NCBI GenBank assembly: GCA_963575645.1
Contig: OY754467.1
Location: forward strand, 54,035,108-54,099,107
From: Xanthostigma xanthostigma
Lineage: Eukaryota; Arthropoda; Insecta; Raphidioptera; Raphidiidae
DNA length: 64,000 nucleotides
Direction of reading: 5' to 3'
Positions 7,820 to 59,682 of this stretch are shown piece by piece; the stretch's first letter is position 1; every line of letters begins with the position of its first letter. Both the position numbers and the translations under genes were made by a program. The notes below the pieces were generated by a model. The model had not been told where the DNA came from. It worked only from the letters and a program-made list of their open reading frames with translations, and did not search any database.

Positions 7820-8540
7820 TTAAGGAGGTTGATGCGTTACAGTCCCAATCAAAAGTAAGTCGAAATCTAAATGAGAACTTTTCCATAATACATTTTTACA
7901 AAAGGTTATAAGTCGATGATACCAATAAATTATTGTCATAAAGGAATAAATAAATAATTTTTTTAATATTAATTAATTATTTCAGTATTTTACTTAATGG
8001 ACTAACTTTTTAATTTTTTGTACAAAGTTAGGTTAGAAAAAATAAATCGATGTAAATATTTGTATTTTACATATTTTTTGCAGTAAATAATTAAAAAAAG
8101 AAATTAGAAGTAATAAAAATTAAAATTGAGTCATTAAAAAGTTGAAAATTCAGTTAAAATTATTAAAATTGTCAAGAATAAAAATCCATAATCGAAAAGT
8201 GCTAAGGTTTAATAATTTTTTTTATTGATTAAAAGTCTCCTAATTAAATTGGAAAAAATATTAAAATATGCGTAGGTAAGACAATCGATGCTTTACATAG
8301 TAGTTTTCGGAACTGCTGACATTATTTGGTTGTTTTCAAAAAATTAAAATGTACCGTTTGCATGCTAGGTTGACATGCTTTCCATAAGACTACATGTAAA
8401 AGTTTTTTTTAATTTTTAACTTTATAAATCTCGTAATGATTATGGATTTTTTACAGAAAATTTTGTCATAAAAAAATCTATTAAAAAACCATATCTCTGA
8501 TTTTTTTCATTATCTTCGTAAAACGGCTCAACCTCCTTAA
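7820..8540 (+). mobile_element. Family B TTAA-flanked element, copy 1
   Basis: About 720 bp. Starts TTAAGGAGGTTGATGCGTTA and ends CGGCTCAACCTCCTTAA, so an 11-bp inverted repeat GGAGGTTGA(K)C is set against TTAA at both ends. All five copies in the window have TTAA at both junctions and different flanks, which fits piggyBac-type insertion at TTAA. The terminus is not the CCC start usual for piggyBac, so the assignment rests on the target site. The interior is AT-rich and non-coding. Confidence 0.8.
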
Positions 8541-23190: not shown

Positions 23191-23893
23191 TTAAGGAGGT
23201 TGATCCGTTACAGTCCCAATCAAAAGTAAGTCGAATTCTAAATGGGAACTTTTATAGTTTATAAGTTGATGATACCAATAAATTATTGTCATAAAGGCAT
23301 AAATAATTTTTTTTTTTAATATTAATTAATTATTTCAGTACTTTATACTTAATGGACTAACTTTTGTATTTTTTGTACAAAGTTAGGTTAAAAAAAATAC
23401 ATTTATGTAAATATCTGTATTTTACATATTTTTTGCAGTAAATAATTGAAAAAAGAAATTAGAAGTAATAAAAATTAAAATTAAATCATTAAAAAGTTGA
23501 AAATTCAGTTAAAATTGTTAAATCTGTCAAAAATAAAAGTCCATAATCGAAAAGTGCTAAGGTTTAATAATTTTTTTTATTGATTAAAAGTCTCCTAATT
23601 AAATTGGAAAAAATATTAAAATATGCGTAAGACATCGATGCTTTACATAGATAGTTTTTGGAACTGCTGACATTATTTGGTTATTTGCAAAAAATTAAAA
23701 TGAACAGTTTGCATGCTAGCTTGACATATTTTCCATAAGACTACATGTAAAAGTTTTTTTTTAATTTTTAACTTTATAAATCTCCTAATGGTTTTGGATT
23801 TTTTACAGAAAATTTTGTCATAAAAAAATCTATTAAAAAAACTTTATTTCAGATTTTTTTCATTATCTTCGTAAAACGGCTCAACCTCCTTAA
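23191..23893 (+). mobile_element. Family B TTAA-flanked element, copy 2
   Basis: Same ends as copy 1 (TTAAGGAGGTTGATCCGTTA ... CTCAACCTCCTTAA), collinear throughout. The TTAA is preserved at both junctions. Confidence 0.85.
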
Positions 23894-24642: not shown

Positions 24643-25354
24643 TTAAGGAGGTTGATGCGTTACAGTCCCAATCAACAGTAAGTCGAATTATAAATGGGAA
24701 CTTTTCCATAATAAATTTTTACAAAAGGTCGATGATACCAATAAATTATTGTCATAAAGGCATAAATAAATATTTTTTTAAATATTAATTAATTCTTTCA
24801 GTATTTTACTTAATGGACTAATTTCTGAATTTTTTGTACGAAGTTAGGTTAGAAAAAATAAATTTATGTACCTAAATATCTGTATTTTACATATTTTTTG
24901 CAGTAAATAATTAAAAAAAGAAATTAGAAGCACTAAAAATTAAAATTAAATCATTAAAAAGTTGAAAATTCAGTTAAAATTGTTAAAATTGTCAAGAATA
25001 AAAGTCAATAATCGAAAAGTGCTAAGGTTTAATAATTTTTTTATTGATTAAAAGTCTCCTAATTAAATTGGAAAAAATATTAAAATTTGCGTAAGACATC
25101 GATGCTTTACATAGTTAGTTTTCGGACTGCTGACATTATTTGGTTATTTGCAAAAAATTAAAATGTACCGTTTGCATGCTAGGTTGACATGCTTTCCATA
25201 AGACTACATGTAAAAATTTTTTTAATTTTTAACTTTATAAATCACCTAATGATTTTGGATTATTTACAGAAAATTTTGTCATAAAAAAATCTATTAAAAA
25301 AACTTTATTTCGGATTTTTTTCATTATCTTCGTAAAACGGCTCAACCTCCTTAA
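24643..25354 (+). mobile_element. Family B TTAA-flanked element, copy 3
   Basis: Collinear with copies 1 and 2, with TTAA at 24643-24646 and 25351-25354. It lies only ~750 bp from copy 2 in the same orientation. Confidence 0.85.
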
Positions 25355-29366: not shown

Positions 29367-29652
29367 CTCTAGAGGATACAGCATTGAACATATTATACGC
29401 TTTAGCTCTTAATTTATCTTCTTCAGATTCGGGTTAATATGTAAGTTTTACACATTTGTAATGAAAAAAAATGACAATAATATACGCAAAATTAAAAAAA
29501 AAAACGCTTCATTCTTTGTGAAATTTACGTTTTTATACTGTTTCTACCAAATATAGCCTACAACTTTAATAAAAAAAAAACTAAACCGTTGTCACGTACA
29601 TCGAAAATATGTGGTTAAGAATTAACTAGATCAAAAATTATATTTAACTTAC

Positions 29653-29677
29653 CGCTGATCGTCCCCGCTGTACTCAT
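29653..29677 (-). CDS. Candidate 25-nt micro-exon
   Basis: On the minus strand, a CATTTTATTTTTCAG acceptor with a pyrimidine-rich run stands directly before 25 nt, which are followed by the donor GTAAGT. The 25 nt are ~60% G+C in a very AT-rich neighbourhood and begin with ATG. In that frame they read MSTAGTIS plus one base. In the third frame they read EYSGDDQR after a shared codon. The second frame starts with a stop. Both splice signals fit the consensus unusually well and nothing around them is repeated. If real, the gene runs on the minus strand and much of the window could be its intron. A chance arrangement cannot be excluded without transcript data. Confidence 0.35.
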
Positions 29678-29897
29678 CTGAAAAATAAAATGAAAATATA
29701 ATATAATTAATACACATTATTTTCAAAAAAGAGTAAACAATGATAAAATTATAATAAAACTATATCGAGTTTTATTGTGGTATAATTTTACAAAACATGT
29801 AAATAACAAAATATCAAATAAACATCATATAATGTCAGTTTTTCAAATCGTTGAAATATTGTAATAGAACAGTATTTATAATTAATAAAACAAATGA

Positions 29898-30065
29898 GTG
29901 TCTAGTGTTGAGGGCGGCGGCGTTATTCAATTATTTTCGAATCTTGACATGTGTGTGACGGCAGGAAACGATAGCAACACGACCCGCGACGACCCCGAAG
30001 ACTTTAAGAGCGGTGTTATTTTCATTCATCAAAGAAACTCAAAACACTTGCGTTTCTCAATGACC
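29898..30065. other. GC-richer single-copy pocket near the micro-exon
   Basis: A ~170-bp stretch with higher G+C (GAGGGCGGCGGCG, ACGACCCGCGACGACCCCG) lying upstream of the candidate micro-exon on the minus strand. It has an open plus-strand frame of 77 codons but no firm splice signals. It could be a first exon or promoter for the minus-strand gene, or simply unique DNA. Confidence 0.25.
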
Positions 30066-30599
30066 GATATATACTATAATAATTTGTTAAAAAATGATAT
30101 TATTTTATACATAATGAGACTGTTTGATTAATAAATTATTTATTGTCAACAAGGCAGCAATAAAATTTACTTTCAATTCACCACGCAATATATCTGTTAG
30201 AATAGTTACTTGTAGAATAAATATATACTGCACTATACGCCTTGCTCTTTTTGTCCCAAAAATCCGACCGAAGTCAAAAAAAAAAAACATTCACAAAATA
30301 AAATTGTTTTATGCTAACCCAATTGCACACAAAACTTTATTGTTTTACACAACTATATACACTTCATCAAAGGTTAATAAACAACACATAAATAAATTCA
30401 CAAGAGCAACTGTAGATATATAATACTCCACGTCTAATAGGTTAGGTATTATGTGTGTGTGGCAGCCATTATTATTTTATCAGGCGAATAAATATTTATA
30501 CCGTTCAAAGTAAGACAGAATAGATTTATACCTGCAGTAAACATAGTTATGTATAGTGAATTGAATTATCGATATTTATTCGGGGGAATAGCTACCTGA

Positions 30600-31040
30600 A
30601 GAACAAATGAACCGAATAAATAACTTTAATCAACTCATGCGCGTTATTCATGTTTTATCATGCCTAAAAACCGAACCCTAAATAGCCATTTACCGACTGG
30701 TGACAATTACTTGTCATAACTCAATGAAGATTCCTACTAGCTCGGCCATTGTGGAGTAATGAAAAAAAACGTAACTATTTTCTGAGTCGTAACGAAATAG
30801 TAGGTAACAACAACTCCCTGTTGTTACCCATTGAGACTAAAATTGAGAGGCCGAATGTTTTCCACATGGAGTTTATTCATAACCGGCTAACCTCAAACCA
30901 AAACATTGAATCGTGCTGTTTGGTGCTGTTAGTATTGACAGTTTTTTTTTATAAAGAAATAAATAGATATTTACAACATCTCATTAATAACAATAAATAA
31001 AACATGAATAACGCGCAATTGTTGAATAAAATTATGGGCG
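30600..31040. repeat. Inverted repeat pair ~400 bp apart
   Basis: ATGCGCGTTATTCATGTTTTAT near 30637 (shown in part) pairs with ATAAAACATGAATAACGCGC near 30998, with weaker similarity outside (TTAATCAACTC / TTGTTGAATA). Between them a small hairpin GGTAACAACAACTCCCTGTTG is at 30802. Probably a MITE with ~30-bp arms; no target duplication was resolved. Confidence 0.5.
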
Positions 31041-31097
31041 TAACTTGTAGGCTAAGTCATGACACGCCATGAATGACTTAGACTACTAGTTACGCCA
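31038..31097. repeat. Small hairpin
   Basis: Arms GCGTAACTTGTAGGCTAAGTC and an imperfect complement (GACTTAGACTACTAGTTACGC, shown in part) around a CACGCC loop. Confidence 0.65.
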
Positions 31098-31984
31098 ATA
31101 ACTAATACATACTAAAGTTCGGTGAATATGGCCATGAGTGGCAATGCGTGGACGGGTACAACTAGTCATATAATAAGTATGGTTCATAAGCCTTTATTAT
31201 CATGTAAAAATGATCATTGTAATTTTTAAGAACCACTTGCGATTAAATAGATCAGACAGTTTTTTTACCAAAAAAAAATATCATTGATAAATTATTCAAG
31301 TGTTCAACTGTTGCGAAACAATAACAGTGATTTGTCATTAATTTATAAGAATGAATCTATAAATATATTCGTAAAAAAATAAAAAATTATCATTTTGTTA
31401 TTGCTTTCGATATTATTAATATTATTGTCATATTAAAATTAAAATGAGAAATTGGAATATTATGATTGTGATGCTTCGTTGATTATAAATAATACAATTT
31501 AATTAATTGTTTTTATGTATCATTAATTGTTTAAAAATAACATCCTGTGCACAAACAAAAGAATCGGCATTTTAAAAAGAACAAACGAGATTATTGGGAC
31601 GCCGTTGTTTATAATAAGTTTTAACATATTATATTAAAAAAAAAAAACTTCGGAGAAGTAAAAACTTCGTTCTATGCTAAATTCAAAAACTTGAGGCGAC
31701 TGAATCTTAAGATCCTATGAAAGTCACGTGGTCACTATAAAACTTGGAAACTGGCTTCATATACACGGCGTTATATGGGACAAAGGCAAAATCAATGTAT
31801 AAGAATACGCTAGAGATTCGTTGGCATTTAGCACAGAAAAGAATCTCTAGCGAGATTCTTCGATTAGTCTGCACTCCCAGTTTTCAAGTTCTAGTCTCTA
31901 GAGCACTGATGGCGACTCGCGGGTCAGACACTGACCCGCGCAGGCTTTTTAAATGACCCATGTGTTTATTTCTATGTAAACTCA

Positions 31985-32695
31985 TTTTTGACCAAAACCG
32001 AAATCTTTCGGAACTTTGGCAAAATCATCACGCTTATAGAAAAAAACACGCTGAATCCAATGAGCACAAACAATCGTCTGTATGTCTGTTGGTTTAGGAG
32101 TTGTTTGCGTTTATATTTTTCAGAAAATCATATAAAACCTTCGAATGGCCGTATAGTTTCCAAACTAAAAGAGATACAGACGTTTGCTTATGCTCATTGA
32201 ATTCAGCGTAATTTTTTCTGTAAGCATACTCAATTTCAAACTTATATTAAAGAATTCGATTTTTGCAATTTTTCAAGGCATACACCCCTTTAAAAAAATT
32301 TGATTTTTGACGAATACCGAAGTCTTTCGGAACTTTGGCTAAGTCATCATGCTTATAGAAAAAACACGCTGAATCCAATGAGCACAAACAAACGTCTGTA
32401 TGTCTGTTGGTTTAGAAGTTACTTGCGTTTATATTTTTCAGAAAATCATATAAAACCTTCGAATGGCCGTATAGTTTCCAAACTAAAAGAGATACACACG
32501 TTTGCTTATGCTCATTGAATTCAGCGTGATTTTTTCTGTAAGCTTATTAAATTTCAAACGTATATTAAAGAATTCGATTTTTGCAATGTTTTCAAGGCAT
32601 ACCCCTTTAAAAAATTGCGATTTTTGACGAAAACCGAAATCTTTCGGAACTTTGGCAAAATCATCATGCTTATAGAAAAAAACACGCTAAATCCA
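31985..32695 (+). repeat. ~318-bp tandem satellite, 2.2 units
   Basis: Unit starts at 31985, 32304 and 32621 (periods 319 and 317). The units are close to each other in sequence, from TTTTTGAC..AAACCGAAATC through CTTTCGGAACTTTGGC to TCAAGGCATACCCCTTT. Each unit has inverted arms CGCTGAATCCAATGAGC and GCTCATTGAATTCAGCG about 120 bp apart. The third unit stops after 75 bp. The 70- and 72-codon frames in units 1 and 2 are alike because the units are alike; their starts differ, so coding is doubtful. Another copy begins at 63956. Confidence 0.85.
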
Positions 32696-33181
32696 GCATG
32701 GTCGTAAAACGTCGTGTGTCATCCAAAAAAAGTTTCGAACTAAACAAAAAATAAAATTTAACCATCCCCCCTCATTCTTTCCAAGTAACGCCACTGACTT
32801 AGTACTAACTAGAGCACGTAACAAACACATCTAGTGTTGACTAAAAAGTTAAAAGAACTACGAAATGGAATACCTGTATAAAAAATGGAAAAATATTCAA
32901 TGAAGCACCGTTTTAATGACAAGAAGGCTCGGCCATCTTTAAATACAATTTTATCAATGAAATTTCCTTGTTCTCATTATTGATTGGTCAGTTTGTTATC
33001 TTAATTATATTTTGAAAAAATCTTTGACTTATTTTGATAGGGTAATATTTTCGCAAATAGATAATCACTATCTAATTCACAAACAGACGAACGTCTATCA
33101 AAATAATTTATTATTTCAAAACACATCTATCAATATTGAGAGCAACGTTGCCTATTTGTATCTTACAAGCATGGATATCTA
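32696..33181. other. Unassigned DNA
   Basis: Nothing recognised. Confidence 0.4.
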
Positions 33182-33804
33182 TCTTTATATATAAAAATTA
33201 CGTGTCACATGTTTGTCCGCGATGAACTCCTAAACTACTGAACCGATTTTAAATTTGATTTGCACACCGTGTGCAATTCGACCCAACTTGAAAGATAGGA
33301 TAGCTTACATTTCAATTTATAGTCGCAATATTATTTTATTGCAAATTATTTGTCTATTCCTTGACAGTCATAATTATCTGTTAGCTCCAGGATTGAGTGA
33401 ATATTCAATAGATGGCGCAACGAACTTAACAACCATATAAGATGGCGATACCTGTTGACTGGATTGAGTGAATATTCAATAGATGGCGCAACGAACTTAA
33501 CAACCATATATCTAGATCGAGGATGTAAAAAAACTGAATATCGTTTAAAACTGCTCGGCACGACGGCGCAGCCGGAGTGCTCGAAATAGAGCAAGTGTTT
33601 TAAAGACCAGTTATCCACGAATACTTTACGCTATTTTTTTTCGAGCACGACGGCGCAGCCGGAGTGCTCGACATACACACATATACGCCCATGTATATTT
33701 TAAAATAGCTAGCAATTAATAAAATAGATAGATAGATAGATGTTCCAATTAAATTGTTTTATTATTTCACTGTATACGTAGCGAAGCACGTACAGGGCCG
33801 CTAG
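33182..33804 (+). mobile_element. Non-autonomous Helitron (TCTTTATATATAAAAATTACG type)
   Basis: Begins TCTTTATATATAAAAATTAC and ends GCGAAGCACGTACAGGGCCG CTAG (33801-33804), followed by T. Inside are two 50-bp direct copies (33390-33439 and 33461-33510, starting GGATTGAGTGAATATTC) with a 71-bp period. There are two copies of a palindromic 31-mer (33554-33584 and 33641-33671; core CACGACGGCGCAGCCGGAG) and an ATAG microsatellite at 33722-33741. No coding content. Confidence 0.8.
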
Positions 33805-34146
33805 TATAATATATAAAGCAGAAGAGTTTGTTTGTTTGTTTGGTTGAACGCGCTAATCTCAGGAACTACCGGTTCGAATTGAAAAAAAAATTTTTTTTTG
33901 TTGTATAGCCCATTTATCGAGGAAGGCTATAGGCTACATAATATCACGCTACGACCAATAGGAGCGGAGCATCGATGAAAAATGTTGCAAAATGTAAAAT
34001 TTGTCTGTCCGACAAAAACTTTTGAACGGTAACTCCGATCATCATAAAATTTGGACACAACATTCATCTCGGTAAACTAAGATGAATGTGCGAACTCATG
34101 TCCCTCCCTTCCCCATTGGTTCTTTTGCACCCGGGTGAAACCGGGC
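33805..34146 (+). mobile_element. Non-autonomous Helitron, head-to-tail with the previous one
   Basis: Starts directly after the CTAG of the preceding Helitron with TATAATATATAAAGCAGAAG. It runs through GTTGAACGCGCTAATCTCAG, CGAGGAAGGCTATAGGC and TCTCGGTAAACTAAGATG to ACCCGGGTGAAACCGGGC, where it stops without the final GGGACCGCTAG. Confidence 0.8.
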
Positions 34147-34996
34147 TATTACTTAATAAAGAGAGAAAATGAAATTGTTATAAATCTGCAGTTATAGGTT
34201 GTAAATCACGATATTCTTCAGCAAATAAAAGCCAGTTCTGTTAGTATAAGTCAATAAAATATAAAGAAACAACACATGATGCAGCCTACTGTTGAAACTG
34301 AATCATATAATGTAAAATAAAATCAAAGGACATGTAATGAATAAATGAATGAATATAGAGAAGTGGCATTATACCGTATGCCGCTACTTCCCCTGTCCTG
34401 CCGAGTGAGGTGACTTGGGTCCCGAGAGTCCCATAACTCCAGACGCAGTGACGTCGCGGCGAACAGATTCACTATCTCCCTCTCATACTCTACTTGTCCT
34501 TTTGCAATACGAAAATAAAGTTATTATGAAGATATGATATTGTTGGTATATGATTACAGTCTATACACAACTGATTATTCAAATCAAAATAATCTTAAAA
34601 CTAGAATGATCAAAACTTTTATTGGTATAAAAAAATTATGAATTTGTACCAAAAACGCTGTTACTACCAACCATTTTCATTCGCTGGAGATTTTTGTTGT
34701 TGGAACAATAGCTAAAAAATAAATATTTTCTTATGTAACATGTAAGATATATTGTGACACGTTATGGTAGTTAGGATATGAGGAAAAAAAACAAAAGTGT
34801 GTTAAGCTTGGTGTAGAAATTAGCCTATTAATGTTAAGCAAGTTGTTCGTTTCTATACCAAACACTCTTGGGGGCTAAATTAACTGAATGATCTAATTAG
34901 TTTCTATAAAAGCACCTAGCTTTTATAACGTGTCGCAGCGGGGGTATGTCTTGACTCTGTTACAATCAAACCAAACAGATCTCTCTTTATGTACAA
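34147..34996. other. Unassigned DNA with a GC-richer patch
   Basis: 34365-34500 is GC-richer (CCTGTCCTGCCGAGTGAGG, AGTGACGTCGCGGCG) and single-copy in the window, but no gene or repeat signature is visible. Confidence 0.35.
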
Positions 34997-35895
34997 CTAG
35001 CGGTCCCGCCCGGTTTCACCCGGGTGCAAAAGAACCAATGGGGAGGGAGGGACATGAGTATTCACATTCATATTAGTTTACCGAGATTAATGTTGTGTCC
35101 GAATTTCATGATGATCGGAGTTACCGTTCAAAAGTTTGTGTCGGACAGACAAGTTTTGAGTTACATTTTGCAACATTTTTCATTGATTCTCCGCTCCTAT
35201 TGCTCGCAACGTGATATTATATAGCCTATAGCTTTCCTCGATAAATGGGTTATCCAACATTTTTGACGTGATAACGTCTTATAAATTGATGAAACACCAG
35301 CTGCACACACGAAAAAGTGTAACGTTCCGCCTGAGCCTGAGAGTGCAAGCGAGAGCGCGATATAAGCGATAGAGAGGCACGATCGGCAATGGCAATATGG
35401 CGCTAATAATAATTAATAAATGTCATTTTATTTTGTTAAAAATAACTGATCGCCGTCATTATGGATAAAATATGATATTATTCACAACGAATGGAAATGT
35501 ATTGAACAATTAATAGTTTGTACACAAACGCAGCTACATTTTGTATCAAAAACAAATCTTGGGAGATATCTGCATTTCATAACAGCAGCTAAAATAGACG
35601 GTTTGTTAACAAATATATAATATATATACATTCTTTTAAATGTCTTTTATAATTGCTTAAAAAATATGTATTTTGCTTTGGTTGAACAAATTATTAGTCG
35701 GTAAAAATATAGTTTGACAGCTACTAAAATTTAGGTTATGTATTATTAAATACGATATTCGAGCGGAACACGTTATCACGTAAAACTATCGTCCGTAAAC
35801 CGACTTTACAGTCAACCAATTTTATTTTTCAATTCGAACCAGTAGTTCCTGAGATTAGCGCGTTCAACCAAACAAACAAACTCTTCAGCTTTACA
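34997..35895 (-). mobile_element. Non-autonomous Helitron split by a family A insertion
   Basis: On the minus strand the Helitron 3' end (GGGCGGGACCGCTAG, hairpin CACCCGGGTGAAACCGGG) is intact at 34997. Sequence runs to the GGGTTATCCAAC junction at ~35257, is interrupted by a family A element to 35828, and resumes at CAATTCGAACCAG. It ends with CTTCAGCTTTA (~35893), so the extreme 5' end is missing. Unoccupied versions of the junction are at 53977-54223 and 59776-59971. Confidence 0.85.
35258..35828 (+). mobile_element. Family A element inside a Helitron
   Basis: Begins TTTTTGACGTGATAACGTC and ends GACTTTACAGTCAACCAATT. The interior matches 13838-14209 (GAGAGCGCGATATAAGCGAT; AAAAATATGTATTTTGC) and adds a GGCAATATGGCGCTAATAAT region. 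The position in a poly-A/T stretch of the host fits the T-rich target seen elsewhere. Confidence 0.85.
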
Positions 35896-35896
35896 G

Positions 35897-36459
35897 CCAA
35901 TAGCCAGTCGAATCATAAACATAGCTCAAAACTCAAAAGAAAATCTGACAGAACCCCAATCTTTCGTACTATATCTAAGCTACACATACAGACTGGTGGT
36001 AGTTCGAGGTCCGTATGTGAATCCTGTACACGACGCGTGGTTATTTACTGCCTTTTTTTCGCGATACGTGTTCGCCGGATGAACGCGGAGTATGGGGGCT
36101 GGAGGGAGCGCGGGGACGCCTGGTAGCAGAGCGTAGTTGTTTATTTTTTGTGATGTGAGTTGTAACGCGATTTGTACCTACTTTATACCACATATAATAT
36201 AAAGTTAAATTTATGTGCAATGTTACCGTTACAGATATATTGGCCCTTGCCGTGCTGTGCTACATGCTCTACTGATGGGCTTGTGTTGGCTCGAAGCGTG
36301 CCGTGCATGCAGATAATATACTGATGGGCTTATATAGTGGCTAAATATGAACAATGGATCAATTTATACATTTTTTTTACGTTTGTATTTTGAAAACATT
36401 CACTCTATATAAAATATAACCGTTCAAAATTATCACTATACATTCTTCCAATTGTATAT
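35897..36459. other. Unassigned DNA with a GC-rich patch
   Basis: 36000-36130 contains TGTTCGCCGGATGAACGCGG and GGGGGCTGGAGGGAGCGCGG, clearly GC-rich and single-copy here. No splice donor, TATA box or repeat partner was recognised. Confidence 0.35.
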
Positions 36460-36463
36460 ATAT

Positions 36464-36776
36464 TGTAACGGGACGCCACTGGAGGCGACGCCACGTTAGG
36501 CAACAATGTTGGCATTGTTGACGGAACTGCATAGACAACAAGGCGCGCATTGTTGCGCACATTGCTATACCGCACAGAAGCATGCCGAAGCTTTCTAGAA
36601 CGCCGAAGAATGTTCCGGAAGACGGTTGAAGAACTTATATAAACAGCGCTAGCGTGGAAGGCAGGCAGTCAGTCAGAAGTGAGCGTCAGTGACAATGAAC
36701 AGTGCAGCGCGACATAAATAAATAAGTGTTCTAAATAAATTATTATTATTATTTATTTATTTAATTCTTCAGCACA
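36464..36776 (+). mobile_element. Probable Ty3/gypsy-type solo LTR
   Basis: 313 bp from TGTAACGGGACGCC to TTCTTCAGCACA, i.e. TG...CA ends, flanked by ATAT on both sides (4-bp duplication, but low-complexity). The interior has LTR regulatory order: a GC-rich U3, a heat-shock-element array (36592-36621), the TATA box TTATATAAA at 36635, initiator-like TCAGTCAGT motifs ~30 bp downstream, then AATAAATAAG and AATAAAT signals. No internal coding region adjoins it, so it would be a solo LTR. The alternative is a cellular heat-shock promoter; the TG/CA ends and duplication favour the LTR. Confidence 0.6.
36592..36643 (+). promoter_or_regulatory. Heat-shock element array and TATA box
   Basis: Six contiguous 5-bp units: TTTCT AGAAC GCCGA AGAAT GTTCC GGAAG. 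Five of the six follow the alternating nTTCn/nGAAn pattern in register, the last three giving a perfect trimeric HSE. The TATA box TTATATAAA begins 14 bp later. This is the arrangement bound by the heat-shock factor HSF. Confidence 0.65.
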
Positions 36777-36780
36777 ATAT

Positions 36781-37751
36781 ACAAATTTATATAATATGCA
36801 AGAGAGGATTTTCTGTCCAACTTGGGAAACCAGTACTATAGGGCAGGAATATATATAGAGATAAATAGACATCTGTGAGATATAAATATTTGGTGTACAT
36901 AGTAGTTTAGTGTTATTATTGTTGTTTTAGAATTCGTTTGTTGTTCGTTATTTATTACCTATTTCATTTTTTTTTCATTATTATTAGAAAAGTACTTTTT
37001 AGTTAGTTTTTGTTGACTTGCTTTTGTAAATTAATGCTCTAGTGGATTCAAATGTTTCAAAACAAATGAAAAAAATAATATAAAAAAATTGGCCAAGTTT
37101 CAAATTTTTTAAAGTTAAATTCCGATAGAAAACACTGAGTGCAAAGTGCAAAAAATCATGTTCCGTAATTATTCGAGCACCTACTTTAGAATTGAGATAG
37201 GGAGTTTAAATTTGGCTATTTTCGGAAAATACCGGTTTAAGGATTATTCTAGTGGTCTGTAATTAGTATACATACAAAAAAAATATTATTATCTGTCTCC
37301 TATGTCCATTTTGCATGTCGGATACTATATAGTTAAATATAATGTAGCTATAAAATGTTTGTGCGAAAAAATTATTATTGTTACAGGTTGTTTCCCGAGT
37401 TCATTTTTTTTTATTTATTTTTCTTTTTTAACACTGCAAGCCAGCAGGAGCACATGTATAAACGTAATACATACTATAAAATATTGTGTCGTTATTAATA
37501 ATGATTTAAAGCGATCATTTATTCGCTCATTACTTGATATTACACAAATTGAAACGCTTATAAGCACATACCTAAACGAAAACATTAAACAATTTCTTTA
37601 TAATGCCTATAAAACCAAATTCCAGACCTTTAACACACAGATTTTTCCATTCAACCATTAATATAATACTTGAACGTATGTTAATATTCAATTCATCACT
37701 AAAAAAACTATTTACAAATTATTATTGTTTAAACTGGTTTCAATAAAAAAT
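36781..37751. other. Unassigned AT-rich DNA
   Basis: The 119-codon plus-strand frame at 37302-37661 is the longest in this part. Its translation is low in complexity and rich in I, F and Y, without a recognisable domain, and is likely chance. Confidence 0.35.
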
Positions 37752-37812
37752 CTGAGGTTAGCGTGCTGGTCTTTGAATCAAACTGTCGTGGGTTCAAATC
37801 CCACTATCGTTT
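37752..37812 (+). pseudogene. tRNA-Gln-like fragment
   Basis: A-box-like TTAGCGTGCTGG, CTTTGAATC in anticodon position (TTG, Gln), and a perfect T arm (GTGGG TTCAAAT CCCAC) with an intact B box GGTTCAAATCC. The acceptor stem is absent. Probably a tRNA-derived SINE head or pseudogene. Confidence 0.45.
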
Positions 37813-37869
37813 AATGATGTCGTTTGATATGTAATCTGATGTAGGAATTTAATGAACGGAAGATAAAAT

Positions 37870-38060
37870 ACTCTGGTGTGTGTGCAGTCACAGTCGACAG
37901 CAATTTACCGATCAGACTATATACAAACGACACGGTACGTTACATTGTGCGTATGCGACGTCACCAGGAATAGGGAGGCGCCCGGCCCGTTACTCCCGCG
38001 GGACACCGATGCTGTGATTGCTGCCCATCTGGCCGTGCAGAGCTGTTATGATTTTAAATT
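37870..38060. other. GC-richer single-copy pocket
   Basis: About 190 bp with higher G+C (GGGAGGCGCCCGGCCCGTTA) and an open 66-codon frame. No splice signals or family were recognised. It may be an exon or regulatory remnant; nothing proves it. Confidence 0.25.
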
Positions 38061-38180
38061 ATATCCACCATCATAAGCCAATATTACCTACCTACATGAC
38101 GAATGCTGCTTATATTGGGATAAATGACACAATTGTCGGCCCGGGCTATATTTAAATCATTAATTAAAATCTTTGATTAA

Positions 38181-38388
38181 CGTCTGAATAGAACTCTTCA
38201 AGTAAATAAAATTGTCGACCAATTTTTCTCAGATTGTAATATAAATTATATATATGGGCAAACAAAAAGAGCGCTTAAAACACGTGTTAAAGAGCATCAA
38301 AACAATTATAAACTACTCCCTGATAAACATAATGTCGTAACTAAGCATAAAATTGATTACGAAAAAAAAGCTACGCTGAGCTACGTAA
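38181..38388 (+). pseudogene. GIY-YIG endonuclease remnant, Penelope type
   Basis: The frame opens after a stop at 38178-38180 and reads ...LQVNKIVDQFFSDCN, then NYIYGQTKRALKTRVKEH and KLLPDKHNVVTKHKIDY. The Y-(I/V)-Y/G-x-Q-T-K-R-x-L-x-x-R-x-x-E-H pattern, followed by a late conserved H, is that of the GIY-YIG endonuclease domain at the C terminus of Penelope-like retroelements. Stops lie just upstream, there is no reverse-transcriptase region, and a family C element interrupts the sequence at 38389. It is therefore a dead fragment. A stand-alone homing-type nuclease is a less likely reading. Confidence 0.55.
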
Positions 38389-38528
38389 TTACACGCTTCA
38401 TATTAACTTCACTTGTAAGTTTGTATGTAGGTATGTATGTAAGTATGTATGTTTGTTTGTAACCTTCGTTTGGACTACGCAGCAAGTAGTTTATTACTGT
38501 AGTATAATATGCCAGCACTGTAACTACA

Positions 38529-38615
38529 GTGGTTAGCCGTGCGGTCTGAGGCACGGGTCTTCGCTGACGTCAACTCTCGGAGTCACGGCTCGTGGGTTCT
38601 AATCCCGTCCAAGCC
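38529..38615 (+). pseudogene. Class II tRNA-like head of family C copy 3
   Basis: GGTTAGCCGTGCGGTCTGAG (A-box region), a variable arm with GCTGACGTCAAC, and GTGGGTTCTAATCCCG as B box. It resembles Leu/Ser-type tRNA in length and box spacing, but the acceptor stem does not close. Confidence 0.55.
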
Positions 38616-38814
38616 GAAAAAAAAATTGTTTTTTTTTCGGAAAATTTTTGACAATAAATCGAACTAAAAAGTGGAAAATAAATATAGTTTAAAAAAAAAA
38701 CTAAAAAACACGCTTTATATCAAACTAAAAAGTGAAAAATAAATATTGTTTAAAAAAAATTAAAAAACACGCTTTATATCGAACTAAAGAGTAAAAAATA
38801 TTTTTTTTAAAATA

Positions 38815-38957
38815 AGCTTAAAACAATAATGAATAAAAAATACTAGTATTATTGTGAAAAAAGTGTGGGGCGCTTTGTTCCACATTTTCGTACATCAAGC
38901 GCCCCACGTTTTTTTCACAATAATACTAGTATTTTTTATTCATTATTGTTTTAAGCT
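38815..38957. repeat. Long hairpin of family C copy 3
   Basis: Arms of ~60 bp (AAGCTTAAAACAATAATGA ... GTGGGGCGCT and complement) around TTGTTCCACATTTTCGTACA plus three bases. In element orientation this loop agrees with copy 2 and is inverted relative to copy 1. Confidence 0.9.
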
Positions 38958-39030
38958 TATTTTAAAAAAAATATTTTTTACTTTTTAGTTCGATATAAAG
39001 CGTGTTTTTTGTTTTTTTTTAAACTATTTT

Positions 39031-39751
39031 TTTTTCTTGTATTTTATTTGACACAATATATTGTATTATATACAACGAATATCAGTGAAGTATTTGGTTA
39101 GGAAATTTTCATGGCTTTTTGGATCTAAGAAAGCAGTAATTTTTTATAATTTTGCTTTATTCTTACGTATTTTTGTTTGATTGTTATTTTCTTCGATTAA
39201 TACATTTTAATAAAAGCTTGTTTTTAAAATGTTTTTGACTTATATTTGATTATTGTCCGATTAACTATTTGAAAACCACCGCCATGCTCTTGTTGGAAGT
39301 AGTTTTTTTTCTGTCAAGCGATATTATATTTTATGTGTATCAGCATGGACATTGGACAGTTACATAATTGATTGCCGATTATTGGAACCTCCCACCTACA
39401 TAAATATGTATCAGTGTATTGTTATTTTTGCGGTCGGATATTTCATTTCACGCTGGCAATCTATAAAGCGAAAACGATTTTTTTTCTATTAATATTTTAT
39501 TGAGAGTTGTTTTTTTTTCACCTCCTCATACAAATATCTACCCTTCATTATATTATGTTGGAACAGTATAATAAATTTTGATTAAATTAATGATTCGTTA
39601 CTATAGAATGTGTCATAACATAGTGATGGTCCGGTAGAAGGGGTATAAAAAAAATTAAATGGAATTTTAAATTAAAACAACTGACTGTATGAAAAATTCG
39701 GTTAAAGTGTACGGGCCACTATAGGCAATGCAATCAGGTCTTTTCAAGTTG
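39031..39751. other. Unassigned AT-rich DNA
   Basis: Nothing recognised. Confidence 0.4.
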
Positions 39752-39759
39752 ATATGAAG

Positions 39760-40876
39760 CAACGTTGCCAGACGTCTCGATTTTGGCGGGACGTCCCGAT
39801 TTTAAAATCAAAATTAAATGTCCCGCGCGGGACAGGCTCAGTCCCGCTTTTCGGGGATAACTTTAAAAGAAGTTAAATCTTCACAGAATTATCATGAATA
39901 AGTAATTCTTATAAATAATTATTCTCTTATTGTAAGTTGCAATATTTTGTAACACTCACTCCACAGACTATTGTTTGAAACGCCATATTTTTCTAATGAA
40001 TAAAACTTTTTTGATTTTGATTTCTGTTTTTTTTTTTCTTTATTCTGAAGACGAAAAAGACTCAACTATTTAACGATAGGGTAAATCTGATTTAAAATAT
40101 TATATTTTTGACGTGATAACGTCTTATAAATTGATGAATCACCAATATTATAAATTGATAAAACACCGGCTGCATGTACGAAAAAGTGTAACGCGTAACG
40201 CATAACGCGTAACGTTCCGCCTGACCCTGTGCGTGCTTTTTGCTAATTTCTCGCTCAATTTAAATCAGATCGGTTTGAAACCAGTCTTAAACGAAAGAGG
40301 AGAACATTTTACATAGATTTCGTATAACAGAATTTGCCTAAACAGTTTTTTTATACAAATTTATATAGAAAAATAGCTGTATAAATGCAACATGAAAACG
40401 GCTGCATTTCTAATGTTTAATTCAATTTTTTGACATTAGTATTTTGTGAAATGCAACGCCTTCTAAGTTAAGTATTGGAATAACTAATTATTATTAGAAC
40501 ATAATACTTTGTAAGTTGCAAACGTCACTTTTGACATTTCTTATCATTCCGACACCAAGGATAAGCGGATTGAAACCAAATTTTGGGAGGTTTAGGTTAT
40601 GTATTACGGAATACGTTATCACGTAAAACTATCGTCCGTAAACCGACTTTACAGACAACCAATTTTTTTATTAAAATACATTTTCTATGGCTATTTTTGC
40701 TATCTATTGTCACGTAAACGTAATTTTAATTCAAATAAAAAGATAAATAGGTATTTGAAAACTTCTGATTATATACGTTTTTTTTACTATGTCCCGCTTT
40801 CGACGAAAGAATCCCGCTGTTTTCACTCAAAGAGTTCCAAAATCCCGACTTGGCAAAAAAAAAACTGGCAACGCTG
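39760..40876 (+). mobile_element. hAT MITE P, copy 1, split by family A
   Basis: Ends CAACGTTGCCAGACG and CTGGCAACGCTG with a perfect 8-bp target duplication ATATGAAG (39752-39759, 40877-40884). The family A insertion occupies 40105-40669; without it the element is ~550 bp and collinear with 57868-58402. Internal marks are GACGTCCCGATTTTAAAATC, GTCCCGCGCGGGACAG and GGTATTTGAAAACTTCTGA. Confidence 0.9.
40105..40669 (+). mobile_element. Family A element inside hAT MITE P
   Basis: Same subtype as 4041-4702, minus ~55 internal bp. Comparison with the empty site in the other P copy (58180-58200) shows that the inserted block runs from (TTTTT)GACGTGATAACG to ACAGACAACCAA(TT). The target was a run of T, so the exact duplication is hidden but can be no more than a few T. 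It has the CGTAACGCGTAACG repeat variant near its left end. Confidence 0.9.
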
Positions 40877-40884
40877 ATATGAAG

Positions 40885-41721
40885 GGATGTGAGTAACTTC
40901 CAGATGATCGGCTCCAGGCATCCTGTTATTTCAATGTCTTATGTGATATTGTAACAACATGATTACTTTGACTAGATGCTGCAGCATCGCCTTACCTGAC
41001 TCGTTAGCTTTAATTGAAATGCTCTTAATGAATAGGTTATAGATAATTAATGATCCAGATTTTTTCATGGGTCAGGAAAAATAAATGAGACGTGACGTGG
41101 TTATTTTAAATTTTATCTTGATAAATGCAATAAATTACAATAAACAACGAAAGAAAATAATATTGTTGTTGGGAAATTTCATACAAATTTTCAAATAAAA
41201 TTTTCGTTAAATGAATTAATTAATCGAGAGTCTACTTTATGCTAATTGCAGCGCTTGATTCACACTGTATACGAAAGGCAAGCATCAAAGCCGATCATCT
41301 GTTGTTATCCAGGATTAGAAGCACAAACTGATTTGATGTGTTGATAATCAATATGTTCAGCGTTATGTTCGCTTGTTGCCTGGTCCCTTCGCCCCATACA
41401 GCGCAAAAGGGGGAACACAAAACCGCATGTTGATCACTCAGGTTTGCGTAATGTCAATCTGAACAAGATTTCTAACGTATACGCCAATAATTTCTCGAAA
41501 TTCAAAAAATGCACCTCCTCAAAGTATTGGAAAAAAAAGTGGGTCATAATGTATATAATTGACGTTTGTAACCAATTTTAATTATTGGATCAGCAATAAA
41601 TTATTATCTATCTATCTATCTATTGCATTAAAGTGGGGGTTCAGTACGATAACTTGATTTGCCAAAATTTTGACTTTTTTGTTTAAGTCATAGAAAACAC
41701 TAAATTTTGACGTTCGCCGAC
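40885..41721. other. Unassigned DNA
   Basis: Nothing firm. A TATC microsatellite is at 41607-41629. Confidence 0.4.
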
Positions 41722-42387
41722 ATTTTTACCATTCCAGCCCACAAGTGGGGAATGGTAAGTACTAGTTTAGGTCAAAAATCACTTTTCAAAAATTTTACAA
41801 TATCTTTCCGTTTTGAGGTCCCCCGAATCCAAAAAACACATTTTTGAAAAAACTCTGTGCGTCTGTTAGTCTGTGAACACGATACAGGTCAAACGGATGA
41901 GCGGATTGAAACCAAATTTTGGGAGGATGTTTGGTATGCAAATATGAAGAGCCCTATTGTTTTTGGGGAAAATTGGCGCATGCGCAGACGAGATATATGC
42001 TATAACGGTGTTTTTAATATAATAATGGTATACTTTTCATAACGTCTTATTATTCTATTCATTTTTTCAAGAAAGTTTTGTTAAAACATTTTTTTTTCTT
42101 AACTTTACAGTTTCGGAAATATTTTGAAAATAAAAAAAAACAGCCCGCTTTTTTTGTTTTATGGATCTGTCAGAAATAAACTAGTTCGGCGTGCTTTGAT
42201 TAATTTTTACATGACGTGGAACATATTATGTAGATAAGCATGGCAACGAATAGTTAATATCATTGAATACTAGCCATTACCCGCGTCACCTCACGCGATA
42301 TCAGAAATGTTATTTTCTTTATTATAATCAAATGTCAACATTTTTGAAGTTGGAATGGTCCCGTCGCCCAATTGGCTGGAATTTTTT
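41722..42387 (+). mobile_element. Family F non-autonomous element, copy 2
   Basis: Collinear with 1943-2605. The start CCATTCCAGCCCACAAGTGG GGAATGG is itself a hairpin here, better preserved than in copy 1. It ends CCCAATTGGCTGGAATTTTT. Confidence 0.8.
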
Positions 42388-43309
42388 TATCTACATTTAA
42401 AAGCTGTCACGTTTAGGTGTTTTGTGGTGTTATTATGAACTAGAAAGCGATATTTTTACTGTCAAATTTACAAAGCCATTCATATGAAACACGCAAATTA
42501 TATGAGAAAATTATTTAACATTTAATTTTTTAACACCACAAAACACCAAAATTCGAGTTAAAAACGCATGTTTTCTAATATAAATAATTTAAATACTATT
42601 TTAATTTTAGATAAACAAATAGACCTGTCAGACATCAATTCATTTAATAGAGATTATCACTTTTCCTATCAAACATGAAAGAATGAAGGGCTTTCGAACC
42701 CACAAAACAAAATCACCTATTTAATAGTCAACTGGCAAGCACTAGATTGTAATAAATGATAAATAATGCCCATTAATAAACCTCTAACACATGTACGACA
42801 ATATCTGCAGACTATATAGCTGACGAGGAGTTCCCTAAGGACAATAGATCCTATGGGACTCAACCCGCGGCACAACCGACAGGGTGGCATATGGCCAAAT
42901 GAATATATATGCAATGCGATGTTGTTTCGTTATTCAACTGCTACATTGTAATGAAACAATTGACGTCGCGTCCTGCATTTGTTATTTTGTTGACGTAACT
43001 TTATGATGTCGTATATAAAATGATGATAAGAATATTATTATCGTTATTAAAATTGTAATTAAAATTATGAATGAAAAACATCCTACACGACCGGCCACAG
43101 TTTTTTTCATGCTATTTCAGTAAATAATGAAGCATAAATATGAAACAAACGAAGGTCAGGGTATAACAAAAATGTAGTTGATAAGTGTTTCTTTGTTTAT
43201 TTTCTATTATAAGATTCTAGAATAATTTTAAAGAATAGCTTCTGTTGCTACATTATTAAAACACCCATTGTTACATGTCTATATTAGAAAAATTTACTTC
43301 TCAAACAAT
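42388..43309. other. Unassigned DNA
   Basis: Nothing recognised. AAACACCAAAATTCGAG near 42543 and TTTAGGTGTTTTGTGGTGTT near 42413 form a weak inverted pair. Confidence 0.35.
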
Positions 43310-43317
43310 GTCACCAT

Positions 43318-43395
43318 CGAGATACGAACCCCGAATCTTTCCACTATCGAGGCGGACTGAGTTACATTACTCAGTCCGCCGCGATAGTAAAGTTA
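43318..43395. repeat. Hairpin with tRNA-like B box
   Basis: Arms CTATCGAGGCGGACTGAGT and ACTCAGTCCGCCGCGATAG pair with one mismatch around TACATT. On the minus strand the hairpin is followed by GGGGTTCGTATC, which fits a pol III B box, with an A-box-like TAACTCAGTCCG upstream. A degraded tRNA-derived element is likely. Confidence 0.5.
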
Positions 43396-43730
43396 TTAAA
43401 TAGTAGTACGCACTATACCGTACTAAATATTAACATTCTAGAATAATGTTTTCATTCGAGGTTAGTTGAGCTTTTTACGATGCCAAGTACCGATGGAAAC
43501 ATTCACACATTTTTATGTTGGATGTTTGGTACGATTTCAGCCTTCAATCTAGATTTAAGAAAGTCATTTCTTTTACACTAAACGGATGTTTCTATAGTTA
43601 ATTTGAAACAAATGACATTCTTAAATGTATATAAATCATATACTTTTATTCTATACTGAGCATAGGATTAAAATCGCAATCGAACCATTAGGGTGCAAAC
43701 ATATACTTCTGTCTTTTTTTACGCCGTAAG

Positions 43731-43827
43731 CACTGGCGTATCCAGGAGGACAAAACAAGCACGGGGGACCAGGCTTAATAAATTTCTAATTTGCCCCCTC
43801 CTGGGCCAAAAGCTGGGTACGCCCATG
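43731..43827. mobile_element. Short hAT-type MITE
   Basis: Termini CACTGGCGTATCCAGGAGG and CCAAAAGCTGGGTACGCCCATG (complement CATGGGCGTACCCAGC) are inverted copies of a hAT-type end. The flanks do not show a clean 8-bp duplication. Confidence 0.5.
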
Positions 43828-44200
43828 TTAACGTCGTAGAAAAAAACAAAGTTTTTGAAACAGAGATACTTTATTCAGATTATAAATGCAAGTACATCAA
43901 TCAATCCTATCATCGGAGAAATCAAAGGGAATTATATCGAAGAAAGAGACGCAGATATATTTTCGATACGCTTTGTTGCGTTCACTCACCGCAAATTGAG
44001 TAGATAGGCAATGATTCATATAGTTAATTAATAGATATATGGTATAAATTCAATAATTTGCTATCTCCATAAAATTGTGACATTATAAGTTTAAAATTTT
44101 GATCGATAACTAAGATAATCCTGCTTAATTTACATTAATAAATATCTACATAGAAATTCTCTGAATGGTGGGGAAAATCCATAGTGTAGTTTAGAAGAAC
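43828..44200. other. Unassigned DNA
   Basis: Nothing recognised. Confidence 0.4.
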
Positions 44201-44878
44201 TTAAGGTGGTTGAGCCGTTTTACGAAGATAATGAAAAAAATCTGAAATAAAGTTTTTTTAATAGATTTTTTAAGACAAAATTTTCTGTAAAAAATCCAAA
44301 ATCATTAGGAGATTTATAAAGTTAAAAATTAAAAAAAACTTTTACATGTAGTCTTATGGAAAATATGTCAACCTAGCATGCAAACTGTCAGCAGTTCCGA
44401 AAACTAACCATGTAAAGCATCGATGTCTTACGCATATTTTAATATTTTTTCCAATTTAATTAGGAGACTTTTAATCAATAAAAAAAATTATTAAACTTTA
44501 GCACTTTTCGATTATGGACTTTTATTCTTGACAGTTTTAACAATTTTAACTGAATTTTCAACTTTTTAATGATTTAATTTTAATTTTTATTACTTCTAAT
44601 TTCTTTTTTAATTATTTACTGCAAAAAATATGTAAAAGACAGATATTTACATAATTTTTTTTTTAACTTAACTTTGTACATAAAATTCAAAAGTTAGTCC
44701 ATTAAGTAAAATACTAAAATAATTAATTATAATTAAAAAAAGAAATTATTTATGCCTTTATGACAATAATTTATTGGTATCATGGACTTATAACCTTTTG
44801 AAAAATGTATTATGGAAAAGTTCCCATTTAGAATTCGACTTACTTTTGATTGGGACTATAACGGATCAACCTCCTTAA
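44201..44878 (-). mobile_element. Family B TTAA-flanked element, copy 4
   Basis: The only minus-strand copy: TTAAGGTGGTTGAGCCGTTT to GATCAACCTCCTTAA. It has a one-base change in the first TIR (GGTGG for GGAGG) and small internal deletions. Confidence 0.85.
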
Positions 44879-58968: not shown

Positions 58969-59682
58969 TTAAGGAGGTTGATGCGTGACAGTCCCAATCA
59001 AAAGTAAGTCGAATTCTAAATGGGAACTTTTCCATAATAAATTTTTATAAAAGGTTATAAGTCGATGATACTAATTGTCATAAAGGTGTAAATAATTTTT
59101 TTTTTAATATTAATAATTTATTTCAGTATTTTACTTAAAGGTCTAATATTTGAATTTTTTGTACAAAGTTAGGTTAGAAAAAATAAATTTATGTAAATAT
59201 CTGTACCTATTTTACATATTTTTTGCAGTAAATAATAAAAAAAAGGAATTAGAAGTAATAAAAATTAAAATTAAATAATTAAAAACTTGAAAATCCAGTT
59301 AAAATTGTGAAAAAAGCCAAGAATAAAAGGCTATAATCGAAAAGTGCTTAGGTTTAATATTTTTTTTAATTGATTAAAAGTCTCCTAATTAAATTTGAAA
59401 AAATATTAAAATATGTGTAAGACATCGATGCTTTACATAGTTAGTTTTCGGAACTGCTGACATTATTTGGTTATTTGCAAAAAATTAAAATGTACCGTCT
59501 GTATGCTAGGTTGACATATTTTCCACAAGACTACATGTAAAGTTTTTTTTTAATTTTTAACTTTATAAATCTTCTAATGATTTTGGATTTTTTACAGAAA
59601 ATTTTGTCATAAAAAAATCTATTAAAAAAACTTTATTTCAGATTTTTTTCATTATCTTCGTAAAACGGCTCAACCTCCTTAA
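58969..59682 (+). mobile_element. Family B TTAA-flanked element, copy 5
   Basis: TTAAGGAGGTTGATGCGTGA to CTCAACCTCCTTAA, collinear with copies 1-3. Confidence 0.85.

Follow-up and report, generated by a model that had tools for sequence, protein, structure and literature searches.

A putative heat-shock-type promoter in a damaged long terminal repeat of Xanthostigma xanthostigma

A 64,000-nt stretch of the Xanthostigma xanthostigma genome (Insecta, Raphidioptera; assembly GCA_963575645.1, contig OY754467.1, positions 54,035,108 to 54,099,107; hereafter the window) contains an array of heat-shock element (HSE) units upstream of a TATA box, within what is probably a damaged long terminal repeat (LTR), probably a solo one, of an old LTR-retrotransposon subfamily. 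Our analysis suggests, with a probability of roughly 0.7, that this LTR family had a promoter of the heat-shock type, driven by heat-shock factor (HSF) and activated by heat in the period when the element was active. Copies were sought in the 623-Mb host genome (28 contigs, among which the window is C4:54035108-54099107), and the control for each pattern search was the same pattern reversed.

Heat-shock element and promoter of the window copy

The HSE is a 30-mer at 36592-36621 (window numbering) with the pentamer cores TTC, GAA, (CCG), GAA, TTC and GAA, i.e. with five of six units in register, as an earlier reading of this DNA from its letters (here the sequence-only reading) had claimed. TGAAG at 36627-36631 falls back in register one unit later, which gives an array of 6/8 pentamers in register on the plus strand at 36592..36631. 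These scores lie above those of all shuffles: when the 64-kb window was shuffled 131 times with its dinucleotides preserved, the maximum over six units was 3 in 111 cases and 4 in the remaining 20, and over eight units a single shuffle attained 5 and none 6. Of 4000 shuffled versions of 36464-36776 (313 bp), one scored 4/6 and none 5/6. Because no window shuffle reaches 5/6 or 6/8, the window HSE is real, beyond chance. If an HSE is defined by at least three contiguous alternating nGAAn/nTTCn units, the window copy contains one, and AGAAT GTTCC GGAAG is the only perfect triple of alternating units in the window. Upstream of the HSE, GAA units that also belong to the family array, AGAAG and CGAAG (36576..36590, plus strand), are out of register in the window copy through an extra T at 36592, which breaks the register with these upstream units; a base at this position is present in 18 of the 39 copies selected by U3 similarity (see below), and copies without it can have longer in-register arrays.

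The TATA box TATATAAA (36636..36643, plus strand) stands 14 bases after the HSE, the very spacing given by the sequence-only reading, and at 36637-36643 the window letter is kept in 38 or 39 of the 39 copies. The TATA module CTTATATAAACAGCGCTARCGTGG has 102 exact copies in the genome (control 0). Among 48 promoters selected by element ends (see below), the distance from GTTCnnGAA to TATATAAA is 15 bp in 11 of the 16 copies having both exact motifs; the HSE-TATA distance is thus steady in these copies. Motif matches also identified initiator-like sequences (GCAGTC and TCAGTC; 36665..36674, plus strand), which we take to be related to transcription initiation, and two AATAAA sequences resembling poly(A) signals (36717..36739, plus strand). 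Transcription is presumed to begin at about 36667, which places the TATA T, 31 bp away, at -31. A promoter and a poly(A) signal within the repeat (TATA, initiator-like and AATAAA sequences, all known as motifs only) are as expected of the U3-R-U5 organization.

The U3 at 36501-36555, likewise that of many other copies, also contains inverted and direct CATTGTTG repeats, presumably SOX-like, and one copy (L064) carries a tandem unit related to them. Among the 100 TATA modules listed, 5 places have more than one module on a single strand, spaced 134-538 bp apart; repeated modules are found at C3:4580011/4580458, C6:40708044/40708240, C6:46734051/46734185/46734589 and C7:7004316/7004451, and in locus L130 (C5:32688449-32689431) the promoter stretch aligns three times, i.e. 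the module is triplicated.

A dispersed family and its retention of the array

The TG at 36464, proposed by the sequence-only reading as one end of the element, was borne out as the true 5' terminus of the family, since the TGTAAC start has 66 exact counterparts among 5' ends in the genome (control 0). The proposed other end, CA at 36776, had to be abandoned: it lies inside a 107-bp insertion of the window copy (36741..36847, without assigned strand), and family copies run on past it, continuing from the sequence that ends at 36740 to that which begins at 36848. Half of the 20 copies that align with both parts have their breakpoint precisely at 36740/36848, where an overlap of 7 bp fits an insertion with its own duplication, and the other 10 break nearby; the insertion resembles the 3' tail of a long interspersed nuclear element (LINE) on the minus strand. 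The LTR itself is represented by a 5' segment with the U3, the promoter and the start of the presumed R (36464..36740, plus strand; 77-90% match to all 39 fetched copies) and by a 3' segment delimited by alignment to family copies (36848..37035, plus strand), from which the last ~43 bp including the GTTACA end are missing. A 313-bp TG...CA element with ATAT duplications was considered and rejected, because the family extends beyond it and ATAT is a coincidence in a TA-rich stretch. Of the earlier designation "solo LTR", the LTR of a dispersed family stands, with its 3' boundary and length corrected; the window copy is likely to be a solo LTR that has lost its own 3' end. An empty target site was looked for inside the window and not found, and a Pfam search in six frames of 29500-44498 (~7 kb on either side; E 0.01) returned 0 protein domain families.

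The similarity search of the host genome gave 41 match rows, of which one is the window and the other 40 fall at no fewer than 39 other places, a lower bound as 40 of 632 candidates were scored. Together with 86 exact 3' ends (control 0) and the 5' ends and TATA modules mentioned above, these matches establish the existence of the repeat family that the sequence-only reading had assumed. Family copies have the termini TGTAAC...GTTACA. We read 70 of the 86 3' ends, leaving 16 unread, and recognised a 5' end in 36 of the 70; the 34 without one were left out. Identical 4-mers flank 22 of the 36 two-ended copies, against 6.7 expected by re-pairing, which corresponds to a 4-bp target duplication, and a 4-mer of the form NTAN follows 58 of the 70 3' ends read. 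The mean difference among 25 typical copies is 18.7%, and 13.9% between nearest neighbours. Pattern scans of viral and genome contig collections for the family found none, except for two 18-base matches in one scan, BLAST of such collections yielded only 19-20 bases alike, and phage records, tRNA and Rfam scans contained nothing relevant, nor did a literature search for the LTR start yield anything. In one locus (L051) the 5' half of the LTR is interrupted, upstream of the 3' end, by sequence that resembles a remnant of a mariner-type transposase.

Retention of the array was analysed in partly overlapping samples: 39 copies chosen by similarity to the U3, all of which were fetched, and copies selected by their 5' end (30) or 3' end (36). 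The latter 66 elements comprise 62 unique ones, of which 14 were dropped and 48 kept as promoters with at least 60% identity over 36576-36660, the stretch containing the HSE. The sequence-only reading had held that copies without the pentamer register would speak against it; such copies did not turn up among the 39, where at least five of the window units are kept in 30 copies (all six in 14) and three or four in the other 9. The perfect triple is found in 32 of the 39 U3-selected and in 12 of the 30 5'-end-selected copies. Many copies contain a longer array, with GAA every 10 bp and TTC between, and at least 5/11 units are in register in 17/30 copies selected by 5' ends, 16/36 selected by 3' ends and 34/39 selected by U3, while 1320 mononucleotide shuffles of the 5'- and 3'-end copies never rose above 4/11. 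The 13/30 and 20/36 copies below 5/11 are as expected of decayed or array-poor copies. In the 48 promoters the six units are retained in 20, 38, 28, 36, 29 and 35 copies, respectively, and the commonest triplet at every one of the six is the HSE triplet.

Evidence for and against a heat-shock-driven LTR

The observations that weigh against an HSF-driven LTR family concern the conservation of the array, the internal region and the HSF of the host. As regards the first, the expectation that the pentamers are kept above the rest of the U3 was supported in one sample and weakly so in the other. In the 39 U3-selected copies the units are retained in 31, 34, 33, 36, 30 and 34 copies (mean 33, versus 20.8 for a comparison set of 51 CpG-free triplets from the rest of the U3; permutation 0.001), a figure that depends on copies selected by U3 similarity, whereas in the 48 end-selected promoters, themselves pre-filtered by identity over 36576-36660 with the HSE inside it, the margin over other triplets of the U3 is weak (permutation 0.095). 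Moreover, six window units are kept in 6 of these 48, five in 6, four in 18 and three or fewer in 18. In favour of the array, the columns of the GAA/TTC cores are better kept (0.868) than those of the spacers (0.767; Mann-Whitney p 0.002) and of the flanks (0.789; p 0.003) in the 48 promoters, with 0.92 for the TATA box and the stretch that follows it; in this test neither columns nor copies are mutually independent, and one of the nine core units (36567-36569) failed to align as GAA.

The weak excess in end-selected copies would fit an array that is real and family-wide and yet made no use of HSF, because it served another factor, formed a part of a constitutive promoter, or was dead before the copies spread; regulation could then have been carried by the CATTGTTG repeats of the same U3. 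We consider this unlikely, albeit the most serious of the alternatives, as it does not sit well with GAA and TTC alternating at 5-bp steps, with cores kept better than spacers, with the steady distance to the TATA box, or with a position such as is expected of a heat-shock promoter (an HSE close to TATA is the layout of the fly hsp70 promoter).

As regards the internal region, full-length elements with an HSE-bearing LTR, for which the sequence-only reading had proposed a search, were not found in the host genome when 3' ends, TATA modules and primer sites were compared. None of the 70 family 3' ends read is followed by a primer site, the 16 unread ends showed no site in a TGG search either (a mutated site would escape that search), and none of 100 listed TATA modules (102 in total) is within 12 kb of 22 primer sites. 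The TGG search produced 91 matches (23 in the control), which include only 2 of the 86 exact 3' ends, both with ATATGG, a sequence that fits the target duplication. A lack of primer sites at the ends read would be natural for a non-autonomous, MITE-like (miniature inverted-repeat transposable element) DNA transposon bounded by short, imperfect terminal repeats and flanked by 4-bp duplications, which retained a transposase promoter with the HSE. The copies are indeed discrete units: 27 of the 36 two-ended ones measure 400-560 bp (the longer ones mostly have additional sequence that typical copies lack or, in the case of L130, the triplicated promoter module), and similarity among 60 loci falls steeply past ~500 bp, with 227 pairwise matches at 450 bp, 62 at 500 and at most 22 past 550 for the 30 loci anchored on the 5' end, and at most 7 downstream of the end for the 30 anchored on the 3' end. 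The termini also pair imperfectly over 13 bp, as judged by eye. We nevertheless regard a MITE-like origin as improbable, in view of relatives in the same genome that have the same 3' terminus and enter a primer-binding site, one of them sharing the 5' terminus as well.

These relatives emerged from 16 loci (L150-L165) picked from the 91 TGG matches for one-base spacing. In 12 of them GTTACA is followed by one base, by TGGTGTCAG and by an ATG frame that by eye resembles a gag start; among the remaining loci one has a one-base difference in the primer site and 3 do not fit. The long form of the primer site has 22 exact copies genome-wide (control 0). TGGTGTCAG is the complement of CTGACACCA, presumably the 3' end of tRNA-Leu, and a primer site of this type together with a 4-bp duplication would tentatively suggest the Ty3/gypsy group; a literature search on mdg3 and tRNA-Leu found no paper. 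The relative on contig C11 (L159, L167, L169) begins with TGTTGCGAACGCCACTG, by eye similar to TGTAACGAGACGCCACTG of the family, and has a TATA box and TCAGTCAG in common with it. It differs in its U3, from which the HSE array is absent (at best 3/8 units in L169 and 3/11 in L167, scanned apart; no U3 could be recognised in L166, L168 and L170), a further point against a heat-shock-driven family, drawn from the one primer-bearing relative with a U3 that was read. The array may have been gained in this subfamily, although one case does not settle gain versus loss. Since relatives with the same 3' end enter the primer site and one shares the 5' end, we conclude from these sequence likenesses that the family most probably represents an LTR, whose copies were all encountered without an internal region. 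In another locus (L154) a primer-site-like sequence after the LTR end is followed by a second TGTTACA-GTAT within ~30 bp, as would result from an internal deletion that brought two LTR ends together.

As regards the host, the match to an HSF DNA-binding domain consists of one 45-residue row (E 3.8e-9) with three stops counted inside, and for this reason is no proof of an intact HSF gene but only a hint. A single chance site in non-repetitive DNA, which would agree with the lack of any second family copy in the 64-kb window, is refuted by the shuffles and by a repeat family that matches at 39 or more other places and keeps the register.

Proposed mechanism, known systems and other repeats

Animals have HSF, which as a trimer binds uninterrupted runs of alternating nGAAn units and switches on promoters whose HSE lies close upstream of TATA. 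The U3 promoter of the family is laid out like that of a heat-shock gene, with the HSE array between ~36 and ~75 bp ahead of the presumed start and extending further in many copies, TATA at -31 and an initiator. HSF trimers bound to the array would have driven transcription and thereby coupled the element to stress during its active period; LTR-LTR recombination would then have reduced the family largely to solo LTRs, each of which could act as a heat-responsive promoter. Binding by HSF, induction by heat, the way in which solo LTRs arose and any effect on host genes are inferred from sequence, and residual promoter activity of the solo copies with consequences for host genes is speculation.

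Mobile elements carrying HSEs have already been reported from plants, nematodes and, putatively, fungi (PMC3907296, PMC6927752, PMC12810828). The copia-type ONSEN of Arabidopsis is likewise an LTR retrotransposon linked to HSEs: HSFA2 binds its LTR in vitro, and activation is severely reduced without HSFA2 (PMC3907296). If the family described here works as proposed, the two would work alike, but ONSEN is a plant element with measured activity, whereas the present LTR copies are known from sequence alone and their array is longer. TCN3 and TCN12 of Cryptococcus, whose heat-dependent mobilisation was measured, also have putative HSEs within their LTRs and a proposed coupling to heat (PMC12810828); they are fungal and contain one (TCN12) or two (TCN3) putative HSEs. 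The Helitrons of Caenorhabditis, which carry a substantial number of HSEs within an animal genome (PMC6927752), are mobile HSE carriers as well, but are DNA transposons without an LTR. Heat-induced activation via host machinery is stated to have been shown in animals (PMC12810828). We found no report of an HSE-bearing LTR in insects, moths or butterflies in the open-access literature, judged mostly by titles and the beginnings of abstracts.

A more far-reaching scenario, which we put forward tentatively and think rather doubtful, is that one LTR lineage gained an array that reaches 11 or more HSE units, and with it an hsp-type promoter absent from the primer-bearing relatives, and that this subfamily spread and survives only as solo LTRs in more than 100 places, having seeded heat-inducible promoters, some of them with two or three HSE-TATA modules. 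If it were true, the scattered HSE promoters would provide defined loci for asking whether host genes adopt heat-inducible transposon promoters.

The window also contains other repeats. A tandem repeat at 31984-32695 consists of 2.2 copies of a 318-bp unit (92% matches), and a dispersed repeat family is represented by five copies, at 8035-8488, 23390-23839, 24855-25302, 59180-59629 and, on the minus strand, 44201-44805.
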